A stretch of DNA of 64,000 bases from Chitinophaga pinensis (GTDB lineage: Bacteria > Bacteroidota > Bacteroidia > UKL13-3). This document shows, one piece after another, positions 16,601-61,353 of this stretch; positions within the stretch are counted from its first letter, which is position 1; the number at the start of each line of letters is the position of its first letter. The stretch spans positions 1 through 64,000 of the forward strand of contig CAMBSD010000011.1 in assembly GCA_945870425.1 (NCBI GenBank), in the 5' to 3' direction. A program made the position numbers and the translations under genes. A model generated the notes under the pieces. The model had not been told where the DNA came from, searched no databases, and was given only the letters and a program-made list of their open reading frames with translations.

Positions 16601-19600
16601 CTTTAATGGAATTTCATATTCATAATAGTTGTTGATGGCATCCGTACCTATGCGAATGAAGGCTGTCAATTCATCATCTTTCAAATTGGTTCCTTCGGCA
16701 TGGGTAAACATTCTTAACTTACCATATTGTCTTAGGTCGGTCGTCAGGTTTTTAAACACCGCTCTTGAATCGCCATCGGCAAGGTTACATACTTTTACCG
16801 ACAGTGCCTGTTCGTTCTGATAAATCGTTTGGGGAGAGCTAAAATCAGCCTCACGTTGAATACCAGGAGGTACTGAATAATAGGGGTTTTTTTCGATGTT
16901 TACTGTTGAAACCACAAACTGTGTATTATCTGTAGGGTCAATAGGTTGGTCTTCTCCGCCTTGTTTCAAGCTATTTTGGTACTTACGCCAATCAGCTCTT
17001 ACTAGTTGTAGATTTGCAAAACGTAAGGTTATGCTATCCTCAAAACCACGCATAAACATCCTAGCAAAACGGATGGATTTAAAATCAGAAATATTACCGA
17101 TTTTTTGCTGGTATTCATACACAGGTACTTTTAACTGGTACCAGACCTCTGGGGCTTGATTTCCGTTTGCAAAAGAGGCATTGGTATAAATGGTATCAGT
17201 AACAAAGTTCTTTCCAATTTGAAGCGCTTGTTTGCTAATTTCTATCTTGTATTGGAAATACTCCTCTACAGTATTTACGGTGTAATCTTTGTTTAAGTCT
17301 TCGTTATCTGGTACATTGGTAGCTGCTGAAGGATAGGCTGCATTCGGGTCAACTGTAGGGGAGTTTCCCTGTGTCATATTAAACCTCCGGTAGCGCGATA
17401 TTATGTCCTTTGCATTTGCATCATAATCAGCACTTAAGTAATAGCTATAATTATCGTTTGAAGGGTCTGTAGAGGCCTTCTTATAAGCTTCAGAATTGAT
17501 ACCTAATCCAGGTGCATTTTCGATTTGTTTTAAATAGTTATCCGCAAACCACTTTTTCTCTAAATTGTCATCAATACCATCCAATCCCACGTCTTGCTTG
17601 GCTCTTTCGGCCGCATCAGATGAAAACACATAACTAGGAACTGCCTGACGAGGAACCCTTCCCCATGTGGTACTATCAGCTATTGATTGTTGCACAGGGT
17701 CGTTAGAATTTGGTAAACCATTTTCAGCAGATCTGCGGTTATCATGCAAAATATCTTCTGAAATATTACCTAAGTTAAGATACAAATAACCTTTATCACT
17801 GCTTGAAGGGTTGTCTGCAAAGGGGTCTTGTACCCATATTTCAATATAATCAATATTGGCTTGTTCAAAATCATTTTGGTCAATTTTACGCATAATACCA
17901 CCCCAATTGCTTTTAGGGTTTTTTAAAGAGCCGTCAAAGTTCAAATCTTTAACATTGAAATTATAAGGCCCTCTTTCACTTGGGTAAAAAGTTAAATCGA
18001 AAGTAGGTAAGGTTGCGGGTAAACCTTGCTGTATTTGTTTCTTACGGAAAATCTCTGTTTGTAATACCTCACGCATTCTGTGATTTGAAATGGCATTAGG
18101 GTCTCCTTTTATATGTTCAGGCGTATAAGTATCGTTGCGATAAAAAGTACTAGCAATGGTGTACCAGCTTAAATTGGCCCTTCTAAAATTGTATTGATAA
18201 CTGTTGTATAAATCACCTTCAGGAAATAAATCAGGCTGACCTTGTGGTGTAGAAGCAAGTGCCCAATAGCTTCCCATACGTAAATCAAATGGTGTTTCAG
18301 AAGCTTCAAAATCGTCCAAATAGGCGGTGCCGCTTTGTGCCAAGGAGCTTTGAATACCGGGAATTAATTGAGCATATTCGCCAGAAAGTGTAATGTTTGA
18401 TGGCTCTTTTGTTTCAATAAATGGAAGCCTATCTACCATTTTGGTTAAGAACCTTGAATCTCTTTTATACGTACCATCTAATCCTACAACCAAGTTTGAA
18501 ATAGGTTCTTCTCCGATATTTACCTTAGGTGTCAATGGCCTTTCGGTAAGATACATTAAAGTACCTCCTAGCAATAAATCCTTGTTTTCTTTGTAATCAA
18601 ACCTGGCACCCATAAGGGTTTTTTGTTGTACTTGAAACAAGTTATTGCTTTCAGATGAAACCCTGATTACAGCGCCTGAACTAAGCAATTGGGTGTTTAC
18701 AATTTTTACCCTACCTAAGTTGTAATCTACGATAAAATCAACATTCTCAGTCAATGGTGCACCATTAGCTGTAACCCTTACCGAACCTCTAGGAACATTG
18801 GTAGAGTTTAGCGGTATTTCATTATTGGCCGCTCCTGTATAACTACCTCGAATAAAAAATTTATCATATTGAGGCAATTGAATCGCAGAAAACTTAGTAG
18901 AATCATACAATTCAAAAAAACAATAGTAACGGGCCTTGGTGGCATCTGTCACAAATTTTTTCTCTAAATGAGTTCCAAATGGTTCAAGCACAGGGAAGAT
19001 AATTCTTCCCGTTGATGATTGCACCGTAACACCTTCAATCCAATCGTACAAACCATCGGGAGCGCGCTCTTGCATGGTATTCATATTATCCAAATTTAAT
19101 GCAGTTAATAATGGTTTGCCCGTAAGCAAAGGTTCATTTTTCACTGGCAAATAATTCAAATCAGCTCCAGAAGGGTCATCAGCATAGATTACGTTTAATT
19201 TAAAATCTTTGGAAGCAATATTGTATGAACCTAATGAATAAATATTTTTCATCATCAAACCCCAGGTTACCAAATCAGGTCTCATACTTGGGCCTTTCAA
19301 CATTTTCAAATGAAGTACGTTAGGATTAATTGGGTCTGTTGGTAAATCTTGCGAAAATTCACCCACCTTAAAAGGGATGCCACCTATGGTTCCCTCATAG
19401 GACACATTCAGCACATCATCATTGGTCAAGGCTTGATTTAATGAGATATAGCCCAAATTTCTATTCCATGTAAATTCAGTCGCATTAAGTTGACGAGAAT
19501 AGTTTACAATTTGATATTCTGATATTGGTGCTAATTTAGTTTGGTTCTCATCTTTTAATAATTGGTTTTGTATTTCAAAAGAACGTCTCAAAGCTGTTTT

Positions 19601-56327: not shown

Positions 56328-58103
56328 ATGCCATTTATTAGAAAAATATCGATTATTATCTTTTTTGTTTTTTTCTGGTGCAAAGCATTCACACAAGAAA
56401 TGACACTGAGTAGAGTTTGTGAAAATGGTAATAATAATATTTTAATCTGGATTCGACCAACAAGCTTTTGTGACAATTTTATTAGTTACGCCATCTATTT
56501 TCGCGAATACAAACCTTCAAGTCCAGACCCGTATACACTCTTGACTGAAATCTTCACAGACCCTACCACAACATACACTCATATAAATGCCAATACAAAC
56601 TTTGGGAAAAAAAATGAATACAAAATTACCCTAAACTATTTGTGTAGTGGTATTCCGAAAACTATAGATTCTCAAGATAAAATTGCGGATTTGATTCCAC
56701 CCGATCCAACTGTCATTGATTCAATTTCTGTTGACCCAATTACCAATGTAGTTTATGTTTCTTGGTTTCCCAATAAGACCACTGATTTTAGCGATTATTC
56801 TGTATATTCCTCTGGAATTGAAATAAAAATTACTAAGAGTCTCTCACATACAGATGCAACAAATAACCCGAAATCCAAATCAATAAGCTATGAGGTTACT
56901 GGCTATGATTCATGTGGCAATAAAAACAATTTTGGGCAGAATCAACATAATACCATTTATCTAATATCCAGCATTGATACTTGCAAATCCAGTGTGAATT
57001 TAAATTGGTCTCATTATAAGGGTTGGGATAGTATCAGTAAATATTATATTTTTAGATCTATCAATTCGTCTGGTTATATTCTAATTGATAGCATAAATGG
57101 TAAAACCAATTCATATATAAATAATTCTGTTCCGCTCCAATCAACAATTTCATATTTTGTTCGCGCTATTAAAGACACTTCTATTCTTACTAGTTCGTCA
57201 TCAAATTCAACCGATATGCAAAGCGCCAAAAGGGGGGTAATCAAATCCACGTATATAAATTATGTAAGTATAGAAAATAGCAAAATTGAAATCAGCATTC
57301 ATGTAGACAGTACCAATTACCTTGAAAAGTTAAATATCAATAAAAGTCCAGTCAATCAAAATGCATTTTCACTATTGAGGGCATATAGTCACGGAGAAAT
57401 AAATGCGTTGTCAAATCTCATTCATATTGACAATCCTTCTGTCGTTGAAGATGCTTGGAAATATAAAGTAATTGCTTTTGATGTGTGTAATTTGGCCGTT
57501 GATTCATCCCAAACTTCAGGGAACATCGTGCTTAATGGCGAGAACCAAGGAGACAAAAATCTCCTTTATTGGTCAAAGTATTTCACGTGGAACACGGGAG
57601 TAAAATCATACATAATTAACAGGTATTTAGATAATTACATGGTAACCGGATCAAATCCGGTGGTAATAAACACACTTAACCAAAGCGACAGTTTCTTTGT
57701 TGATTTTGACCCAGGACTAGTGGGCAAAACAGCGTGTTACTATATAGAGGCAGAACAAAATACAGGGTCTATATTCGGTAAAACAGAAAAGTCAAAATCA
57801 AATGTATTCTGTATTGAGGGAAATTCGAGTATATATCTTCCCAATGCCTTACACTTGAACAATGGACAAAATTCAATATTCCTGATTCGCGGATTAAATA
57901 TTAATACAACAAACCTATATTTTGAGGTTTTTGATAGATGGGGAAGAAGTGTAATTATACTAAATGATCTAAGCAGCGGCTGGGCTGGAATTGATAAAGA
58001 TGGGTCAGTGCTTGAGCAAGGATTGTATTTCTATTTACTAAAAACAACAAATACAAAAGGGGAAACAATAAATAAGAATGGTGGAATCTACATATTCAAA
58101 TAG
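56328..58103 (+). CDS. secreted protein with type B (CHU_C-like) type IX sorting domain
   Basis: 591 residues. Signal peptide (RKISIIIFFVFFWCKAFTQ). The middle is several fibronectin-like beta domains (ILIWIRPTSFCDNFISYAIYFREY, VNLNWSHYKGWDSISKYYIFRSI) with Tyr and Ser rich strands. The last ~95 residues (IYLPNALHLNNGQNSIFLIRG ... YFEVFDRWGRSVI ... GWAGIDKDGSVLEQGLYFYLL) are the gliding-associated C-terminal domain that directs export by the SprA system. It contains a parS-like site in its coding sequence (57579-57594). It overlaps ybeY by 26 bases. Confidence 0.92.
   Translation: MPFIRKISIIIFFVFFWCKAFTQEMTLSRVCENGNNNILIWIRPTSFCDNFISYAIYFREYKPSSPDPYTLLTEIFTDPTTTYTHINANTNFGKKNEYKITLNYLCSGIPKTIDSQDKIADLIPPDPTVIDSISVDPITNVVYVSWFPNKTTDFSDYSVYSSGIEIKITKSLSHTDATNNPKSKSISYEVTGYDSCGNKNNFGQNQHNTIYLISSIDTCKSSVNLNWSHYKGWDSISKYYIFRSINSSGYILIDSINGKTNSYINNSVPLQSTISYFVRAIKDTSILTSSSSNSTDMQSAKRGVIKSTYINYVSIENSKIEISIHVDSTNYLEKLNINKSPVNQNAFSLLRAYSHGEINALSNLIHIDNPSVVEDAWKYKVIAFDVCNLAVDSSQTSGNIVLNGENQGDKNLLYWSKYFTWNTGVKSYIINRYLDNYMVTGSNPVVINTLNQSDSFFVDFDPGLVGKTACYYIEAEQNTGSIFGKTEKSKSNVFCIEGNSSIYLPNALHLNNGQNSIFLIRGLNINTTNLYFEVFDRWGRSVIILNDLSSGWAGIDKDGSVLEQGLYFYLLKTTNTKGETINKNGGIYIFK
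57579..57594. promoter_or_regulatory. parS-like site inside a coding sequence
   Basis: TATTTCACGTGGAACA differs from the parS consensus TGTTTCACGTGGAACA only at the second base. It keeps the full CACGTG core and both half-sites. It lies 951 bases from the exact match at 58530. Confidence 0.65.
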
Positions 58104-58518
58104 GCTGATAAGCTTCAACACAATTGATGTAAATACAATAATTAAGGGAAAAAAGTCAATTGGTAATTGGTTAAATCAAGTAATAGAAAAAGAGGGGCAT
58201 GAACTCGGATTCATATCAATAAGTTTATGTTCGGATAAACACCTTCTAAAAATCAACAAAAGTGTGTTACAACATGATTACTATACAGACATTATTACCT
58301 TTCAATTAAATGAAAAACAAGAGGCAATAGAAGGCGATATATATATCAGTATTGATAGGGTAAAGGATAATGCAAAGACATTAAAGATAAGGTGGGGTGA
58401 TGAGTTGAAAAGAGTAATGGTTCATGGGGTTTTGCATCTTTGTGGCTACAAAGACAAGACTAAAAAAGATAGTGAATTAATGAGAAAAAAAGAAAATGAG
58501 TGTCTATCTTTGCTTTAA
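58078..58518 (+). CDS. ybeY: endoribonuclease YbeY (rRNA maturation factor)
   Basis: 146 residues. It processes the 3' end of 16S rRNA and takes part in ribosome quality control. HGVLHLCGYKDKT (116-128) aligns with HGxLHLxGYDH; the first two zinc histidines (H116, H120) are kept, but the third is replaced in GYKDK, as I recall for other Bacteroidota YbeY. EGDIYISIDRVKDNA is the other landmark. Its ATG lies 26 bases inside the end of the type B sorting-domain gene. Confidence 0.87.
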   Translation: MVESTYSNRLISFNTIDVNTIIKGKKSIGNWLNQVIEKEGHELGFISISLCSDKHLLKINKSVLQHDYYTDIITFQLNEKQEAIEGDIYISIDRVKDNAKTLKIRWGDELKRVMVHGVLHLCGYKDKTKKDSELMRKKENECLSLL

Positions 58519-58529
58519 TATAGTGGATA

Positions 58530-58545
58530 TGTTTCACGTGGAACA
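58530..58545. promoter_or_regulatory. parS centromere-like site
   Basis: TGTTTCACGTGGAACA is a full 16-base match to the bacterial parS consensus bound by ParB. It lies nine bases upstream of the mnmG start. In many bacteria parS sites cluster near the origin and close to mnmG (gidA). Its exact fit makes chance unlikely. Confidence 0.87.
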
Positions 58546-58553
58546 ATAAAAAT

Positions 58554-60422
58554 ATGATGTTAGAAAAATATGATGTTATTGTAGTTGGAGCGGGTCATGC
58601 TGGTTGTGAGGCTGCGCATGCTGCGGCCATACTGGGCAGCAAAGTCTTGCTTATCACCATGGATATGAACAAGATAGCTCAAATGAGCTGTAATCCAGCA
58701 ATGGGCGGTGTGGCCAAAGGGCAAATTGTAAGAGAAATTGACGCTTTAGGTGGATATTCTGGAGTTGTCTCGGACAAATCAACTATTCAATTTAGAATGT
58801 TGAACCTATCAAAAGGTCCGGCCATGTGGAGTCCAAGAACCCAAAACGACAGAATGTTATTTTCACAATATTGGAGAGAACATCTTGAGAATACGCCAAA
58901 TGTTGATTTTTGGCAAGATATGGTTAGTGGTCTCATTGTTGAGAATAACATGGTAAAGGGCGTTATAACCGGAATGGGTCAAAGAATAGAGTCAAACTCT
59001 GTTGTGCTAACAAACGGGACATTTTTAAATGGAATTATTCATATAGGGCAAAAACAATTTGGTGGGGGTAGAATAGGGGAGAAATCTGCAAGTGGAATAA
59101 CCGAACAATTAGTAGAACTTGGCTTCGAATCTGGAAGAATGAAAACAGGAACACCACCAAGGATTGACGGCAGAAGTTTAAACTATGAAGCCATGGAAAG
59201 ACAGGAGGGCGATATTAAACCAGACAAATTTTCCTACTCAAGTTCAACGACACCCATCACAAATCAAAGATGTTGCTGGATTACTTATACCAACAGCGAG
59301 GTGCACGACATATTGAGAACCGGATTCGATGATTCACCCATGTATGCAGGAAGAATTCAAGGATTAGGACCTCGATATTGTCCGTCTATAGAAGATAAAA
59401 TAAACAGATTTGCCGAGCGCAATAGGCATCAAATATTCGTAGAACCAGAAGGGTGGAACACCGTAGAAATATATGTTAATGGTTTTTCAACATCACTTCC
59501 ATATGAAATACAGTTAAAGGCTTTAAAGAAAATACCTGGTTTTGAAAAAGCAAAAATGTTTAGACCCGGTTATGCTATTGAGTATGACTATTTTCCACCG
59601 ACTCAATTAAAGCTAACATTAGAAACGCATTTAGTGAAAAACCTATACTTTGCGGGTCAAATAAATGGCACAACAGGATACGAAGAAGCTGCATGTCAAG
59701 GACTTATGGCTGGAATAAACGCCCATCAAAGAGTAAAGGGCCTAGAAGACTTTGTGTTAAATCGATCTGAAGCTTATATAGGGGTATTAATTGATGATTT
59801 GGTTAACAAAGGTACGGATGAGCCATATAGAATGTTTACATCAAGAGCAGAATATAGAATATTGCTTCGCCAAGACAATGCTGATATTCGATTAACTGAA
59901 AAAGGATATAAATTAGGGTTAGCTTCAGAAGAAAGATACATTCAAGTAAACAGGAAAATCGAGCAAACAAATGAGATCGTAAAATATTTTAAGAAAACAT
60001 CTGTTATTCCAAGTGATATTAATCCTTTACTTGAATCTTTAAAAACTGCTCCTATTAACCAAAACTACAAACTAGAACAAATATTAAGTAGGCCTCAACT
60101 TGATATTGAGAAAATAAGAAACGGTTTGGGGTCAGTCAATGATTTCCTTTCGTCCTTTTGTAAGGATAGTATTTTACAAGCAGAAGTACTCATGAAATAT
60201 TCGGGTTATCTAATAAAAGAGCAAGAGATGGTGGAGAAAATGAATAGATTAGAGAGTGTAAAAATTGACGAGTCGTTTGACTTTAGACAAATTCATAACT
60301 TAAGTAGCGAAGCAAAAGAGAAACTCAGTAAACAAAAACCTGGAACCTTAGGCCAGGCGGCAAGAATAAGTGGAATTTCACCTGCGGATGTTTCGGTATT
60401 AATGGTACATATAGGCAGATAA
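58554..60422 (+). CDS. mnmG: tRNA uridine-5-carboxymethylaminomethyl modification enzyme MnmG (GidA)
   Basis: 622 residues. With MnmE it modifies the wobble uridine of several tRNAs using FAD and methylene-tetrahydrofolate. [23 protein letters not shown] is the FAD-binding motif, followed by [76 protein letters not shown] and [20 protein letters not shown], with [19 protein letters not shown] near the tRNA-binding part. Full length. A parS site is in its leader. Confidence 0.97.
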
Positions 60423-60465: not shown

Positions 60466-61353
60466 TTGGAGAAATTAAAAACTTGTCTTGTCTGCGGACA
60501 CAACAAATTCAGCATATCGTTTAGCTGCATAGATTTTGTAGCCACTGGTGAGAACTTTCAATTAGAAAGTTGTGAAAAATGTGGTTTTCTTTTTACTAAC
60601 CCAAGACCGACCATTAGTGAAATAGGCAAATATTATCAATCAGACCAATACATATCTCATGCAGGAAAAAAGAAAGGACTAATTTACAACTTATATGATA
60701 TCGTCAGAGATTACAGTATAAAACAAAAGTTAAATCTTATCAAAAAATACCATAGTAAAGGAAAGTTGATGGATTTAGGTTGTGGACTAGGCTATTTTTT
60801 AAACGGAGTTAAGCTAGATAAAACCTTTGATGCCTTAGGAGTAGATGTAAGTGATGATGCGGTAAAATATGTAAAGAATACGTTCGCAATTGATGTGAAA
60901 AACGAATTTGAATTAGATAAATTAGATAAACATTCGTTTGACATCATTACCCAATGGCATGTGCTTGAACATGTTCATTATTTAAATGAGCGAATGCAGC
61001 AACTGCATCATTTATTAAAGCAAGACGGAACTATGTTTATTGCAGTCCCAAATAGTAAAAGTAAGGATGCAAAAATGTACAATGAGTATTGGGATGGATA
61101 CGATGTACCAAGACATTTATACCACTTTAATCAAAAAAGCTTTTCATTATTAATGGAGAAACATGGTTTTGTAATAGTTGAGATAAAACCCATGTGGTTT
61201 GATTCACCTTATATTAGCATGCGTAGTGAAGTTCATATGAAAAACAAATATCCATTTATAAATGGAGCCATAAGTGGGTTAAGATCAACTGCTGCTGCAC
61301 TAATCACTGGTGAACACAGCACATTACTTTTTGTAGTTAAGAAAAAAAAATAA
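60466..61353 (+). CDS. class I SAM-dependent methyltransferase with N-terminal zinc ribbon
   Basis: 295 residues from the TTG at 60466. The first 40 residues hold two Cys pairs (C7, C10, C36, C39), a likely zinc ribbon. LMDLGCGLGYFL (101-112) is the SAM-binding loop, then DALGVDVSDDAVKYV and QWHVLEHVHYLNERMQQLHHLLKQDG. The C-terminus (DSPYISMRSEVHMKNKYPF) matches methyltransferases found in sugar-modifying clusters, but here it stands alone after mnmG. Substrate unknown. Confidence 0.85.
   Translation: MEKLKTCLVCGHNKFSISFSCIDFVATGENFQLESCEKCGFLFTNPRPTISEIGKYYQSDQYISHAGKKKGLIYNLYDIVRDYSIKQKLNLIKKYHSKGKLMDLGCGLGYFLNGVKLDKTFDALGVDVSDDAVKYVKNTFAIDVKNEFELDKLDKHSFDIITQWHVLEHVHYLNERMQQLHHLLKQDGTMFIAVPNSKSKDAKMYNEYWDGYDVPRHLYHFNQKSFSLLMEKHGFVIVEIKPMWFDSPYISMRSEVHMKNKYPFINGAISGLRSTAAALITGEHSTLLFVVKKKK

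Follow-up and report, generated by a model that had tools for sequence, protein, structure and literature searches.

Intragenic parS sites are known in other bacteria, for example in spo0J of Bacillus subtilis, and the par operon of chromosomal ParABS systems typically, though not necessarily, lies in the ori domain. To our knowledge, chromosome partition has been little studied in Bacteroidota. The parS consensus TGTTTCACGTGAAACA has been applied with 2 mismatches, and clusters of parS, as well as an ori that does not coincide with dnaA, have been reported in gut bacteria, Bacteroidetes among them (PMC10197239). Two forms of the parS half-site are known, GTTTCAC and GTTCCAC (PMC7022226). The base at parS position 2 is contacted by R173 of Caulobacter ParB, and R173 together with G201 (Caulobacter numbering) defines parS-type specificity; Noc is a paralogue of ParB (PMC7383237).

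The locus described here lies in a window of 64 kb (the whole stretch of DNA analysed, bases 1-64000 of the 99.4-kb contig 11) from the genome of a Bacteroidia bacterium. It carries two sites 951 bp apart, one within the gene of an exported protein and the other in the 35 bp that separate ybeY from mnmG (Table 1). Sequence comparison indicates that the two sites are very probably the chromosomal parS centromere of this bacterium, a pair anchored at mnmG whose intragenic copy is held by selection at the DNA level. Like the parS of ParABS systems of the B. subtilis and Caulobacter type, the sites are 16-bp near-palindromes that match exactly or with one mismatch, occur as two copies within 1 kb alongside one chromosomal ParA-ParB operon and, in the complete relative UKL13-3, take an ori-side position. 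Unlike in those systems, one copy is found at the same five codons of the exported-protein gene in seven genera, it has an A at position 2 that a tyrosine codon imposes, and in UKL13-3 both dnaA and the par operon lie far away from the pair.

Table 1. Positions of the parS pair, the genes around it and the par genes (window coordinates; the L122 positions belong to a locus on another contig).
Feature	Position	Strand	Details
Exported protein, 591 aa, host gene of site 2	56328..58103	+	PF13585 match, 5.3e-13
parS site 2	57579..57594	+	TATTTCACGTGGAACA, 1 mismatch; within exported-protein gene, codons TAT TTC ACG TGG AAC A (Y418-N422, YFTWN)
ybeY, endoribonuclease	58078..58518	+	PF02130
parS site 1	58530..58545	+	exact TGTTTCACGTGGAACA, 0 mismatches; in ybeY-mnmG gap
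mnmG (gidA), parS conserved beside it across class	58554..60422	+	PF01134
ParA + ParB genes	L122:1822-3566		ParB TIGR00180, 186 bits
ParB gene	L122:2682-3566		

The sequence-only reading of this DNA had named an exact parS at 58530 and a second copy, one base off, inside a secreted-protein gene at 57579, with no other near-match in the window. Each of these observations held when the window was scanned: both sites were recovered as described, and the next-best match (18624-18639) has 3 mismatches. The motif is not scattered at random over the genome either. In the entire 2.96-Mb assembly (43 contigs), matches with at most one mismatch were found only at the two mnmG-side sites. One extra match with 2 mismatches, on contig 5, was considered as a third parS and rejected as background, the reversed control pattern yielding 4 matches. 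At up to 3 mismatches the window holds five matches, including 2 opposite-strand readings of the same sites. Shuffled versions of the window gave a mean of 0.58, and none of 100 shuffles gave five.

The arrangement was then compared among relatives. The order of exported gene, ybeY and mnmG is retained in nearly all sampled genomes of the family, which provided 53 loci with both the exported gene and mnmG. With parS-like sites defined as sequences that differ from any one of three forms by no more than 2 bases, 53/53 loci have at least one site within the exported gene or in the stretch from it to mnmG, and 50 of them have at least two in this segment. The commonest layout in the family is that of the window, where the exported gene has one site and the other precedes mnmG; in other genera parS lies within ybeY, or both sites lie in gaps. 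Most members of the family have a site, of one orientation or the other, in the gap between ybeY and mnmG, and the 53 loci together have 51 of these. Short palindromes do arise by chance at 2-3 mismatches, and the pair could in principle consist of chance near-matches in an AT-rich genome. Shuffled sequence, however, leads to an expectation of 0.002 sites per family locus, where nearly every locus has at least two, and shuffles of the window never reached the observed count. Coincidence is therefore an exceedingly improbable account of the sites.

Conservation beside mnmG extends beyond the family. Of 18 genomes from other families of the class, 15 have a parS no more than 1.5 kb from mnmG, again with the motif in either orientation. 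In one of the exceptions (L016), a parS pair flanks a methyltransferase gene (1501-1516 and 2814-2829); judged by eye, this SAM-methyltransferase-like gene resembles the next gene after mnmG in the window (60466-61353). Within the family, genus g13 (L103, L111 and L115) showed no ybeY in the interval from the exported gene to mnmG, and parS is still there. Three close species of genus g6 (L097, L098 and L099) have an extra near-parS, TGTTCCATGTGGAACA, at position 432 in gene orientation, early in the exported gene.

The genome encodes one ParA-ParB operon, on another contig than the parS pair, and no second ParB- or Noc-like protein was found in the 2.96 Mb. Aligned to Caulobacter ParB (6t1f), its ParB reads GKNRSTVSNY and SMGHARA against GKSRSHVANT and TAGHARA. 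The helix-turn-helix has the Arg and Gly equivalent to R173 and G201 and is without the Noc lysines at 179 and 184. The intragenic site shares with Noc binding sites (NBS) an A at position 2 on one side, whereas it has the inner bases of parS. The possibility of a Noc site was rejected on these inner bases, on the presence of only one ParB-family protein and on its residues at 173/201, which are Arg and Gly and not the Gln and Arg of Noc (Q173/R201). The earlier proposal that the region is a ParB loading zone is well supported by the conservation across family and class and by this single ParB, predicted to be of parS-type specificity. The conserved DNA might instead be another kind of signal, such as the CACGTG-type operator of another regulator or an RNA element, given that the CACGTG core is a common palindrome and that a parS role is proposed here from sequence comparison. 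Such a signal is most unlikely in view of the match to parS over the full 14-16 bp, the same motif beside mnmG in other families, where it takes either orientation, and the presence of about two copies per genome alongside a parS-type ParB.

The intragenic site falls in a protein with an N-terminal hydrophobic segment, beta-sandwich repeats and a C-terminal CHU_C type IX secretion sorting domain. In its predicted structure (mean pLDDT 84 overall, about 77-80 around residues 416-424), residues 416-424 form a loop joining two beta-sandwich strands, which is likely a place apt to accept dictated residues. Orthologues of the gene are 28-86% identical across the family. In a 54-protein alignment, the peptide Y[FS]TWN was found at the site in 39 orthologues, a set picked by peptide and not by codons. 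All 39, which are related and in a few cases near identical (e.g. L097-L099) and so are not 39 independent trials, use TAT (one TAC), TTC or TCC, ACG, TGG and AAC, an exact codon string that the codon usage of the remainder of these genes would predict in 0.15 orthologues. Thr is encoded by ACG in 39/39 cases at the site and in 7% gene-wide; the corresponding values are 39/39 and 35% for AAC among Asn codons and 33/33 and 25% for TTC among Phe codons, and TCC makes up 6% of Ser codons gene-wide. The mean pairwise identity of the 15-nt block is 97.9%, against a gene median of 49%.

Because the 39 sequences are related, the fairer control is to count changes on a tree and compare them with those in other columns of the gene. 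On a tree built from a different gene, that of MnmG, no silent changes were counted at the Phe, Thr and Asn codons and 1 at Tyr, compared with a median of 11 and a minimum of 3 in 79 other codon columns of conserved residues. Differences between Phe and Ser occur in four separate places of the tree, always as TTC/TCC, and these replacements correspond to the two half-site forms GTTTCAC and GTTCCAC. An amino-acid replacement compatible with parS was tolerated at the site, and silent changes that would break parS were not.

These data also bear on the view that only the intergenic site works and that a conserved Y-F-T-W-N beta-sandwich motif produces the intragenic match incidentally. A protein motif does exist, as Tyr418 was found in 54/54 orthologues and Trp421 in most of them. 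It leaves unexplained the use of ACG, AAC and TTC without exception where 0.15 exact strings are expected, and the absence of silent changes where the median elsewhere is 11. In addition, lineages without the parS letters lose FTWN, and the sole varying residue (F to S) changes through a T/C that parS tolerates. The peptide YFTWN with other synonymous codons was found in 0/39 orthologues. The silent-site statistics rule out a pure protein motif, and a by-product match beside a single working site has very little probability. On these comparisons the intragenic parS is a conserved dual-coding site, and the elements themselves are standard parS. The sequence-only reading had stated that the intragenic site must suit the amino acids of the protein; this is true and understates the case, as the DNA site also appears to dictate codons and residues. 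A parS within a coding sequence is shared with spo0J of B. subtilis, and what is measured here is its codon-level conservation over diverged orthologues. A literature search, mostly of journals available without subscription, found no study of codon constraint by parS, nor of ParB-parS binding in this lineage. The parS pair itself had been correctly recognised before; the added and notable result here is the dual-coding constraint.

The constraint is not one-sided. Tyr418 is present in all 54 proteins, even where parS is absent, which marks it as a requirement of the protein. Tyrosine needs TAT or TAC, not TGT, and therefore the site has A instead of G at parS position 2; G is found there in 36 of the 51 intergenic sites of the family. 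Since position 2 is the base contacted by R173 of Caulobacter ParB, weaker binding of ParB is predicted for this half-site, and the affinity of the intragenic site may be lower. Orthologues that have lost the site lack the peptide as well (they read YFGWP, YQGWP or YNVF), and usually the segment has sites at other positions. Genus g10 is without the site and its codons read TTT GGT TGG CC(G/T); a ybeY site was found in one of the two g10 genomes. In L090, YFTWN has given way to YSFWK, and AATTTCACGTGGAACA, with two mismatches, lies 35 bp downstream of the Tyr codon in another reading frame, so that parS has apparently moved by this distance into another frame. It is likely that the centromere site is the dominant selective force on this part of the protein across the seven genera. 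It would dictate the rare codons and FTWN, Tyr418 would bend position 2, and after loss of the site the loop would diverge and a replacement parS would arise nearby.

The position of the sites relative to the origin was approached through UKL13-3 (CP012155.1, 3.24 Mb), as the assembly studied here is in 43 contigs. On contig 11 itself, cumulative GC skew decreases over about the first 50 kb and climbs from there to the contig end. Such a turn is expected when the origin side is crossed, and local gene orientation could also cause it. Among DnaA boxes sought in this contig, no exact box was found, only a weak cluster at 91.8-92.2 kb. Skew values sampled along UKL13-3 are for the most part above zero between 0.12 and 1.78 Mb and below zero between 1.9 and 2.98 Mb, with a broad valley whose minimum lies near 43 kb. 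The parS of this chromosome lies at 3.088 Mb. Some 190 kb separate it from the skew minimum and some 300 kb from a DnaA-box cluster near 149 kb, approximately 6-9% of the chromosome. Two adjacent DnaA-box-like clusters, including one exact TTATCCACA, were seen at 148938-149512, and this segment near the skew minimum is a candidate oriC. The dnaA gene lies at 0.98 Mb, far from parS, and parB lies at 763 kb, about 0.72 Mb (22%) from the skew minimum, which puts the par operon outside the ori domain. The earlier claim that parS marks the origin side therefore stands roughly, with skew on the contig consistent with it and the relative giving the distance above across a broad valley; dnaA and parAB are not near.

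From the ParABS family and the parS-type ParB of this genome, we infer that the sites serve in ParB binding, loading and segregation. Each site would be a loading point for ParB dimers, which would form clamps with CTP and spread from there across the surroundings of ybeY and mnmG. ParA would act on the resulting partition complex and separate the new origins. One parS would stay in the ybeY-mnmG gap and the other would be held within the upstream exported-protein gene, where selection on the DNA site would keep the rare codons ACG, TTC and AAC and fix the peptide FTWN in the loop.

These comparisons place the parS of Bacteroidota at one conserved neighbourhood, that of mnmG. In metagenome contigs for which dnaA is misleading, the mnmG-side parS may help to recognise the origin side. 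The variation between A and G at position 2 leads to testable predictions on the contacts between ParB and parS. The intragenic site would be a clean natural case of a DNA segregation site that overrides codon and amino-acid choice, in which the relative strength of selection on centromere and protein can be read from the sequence.
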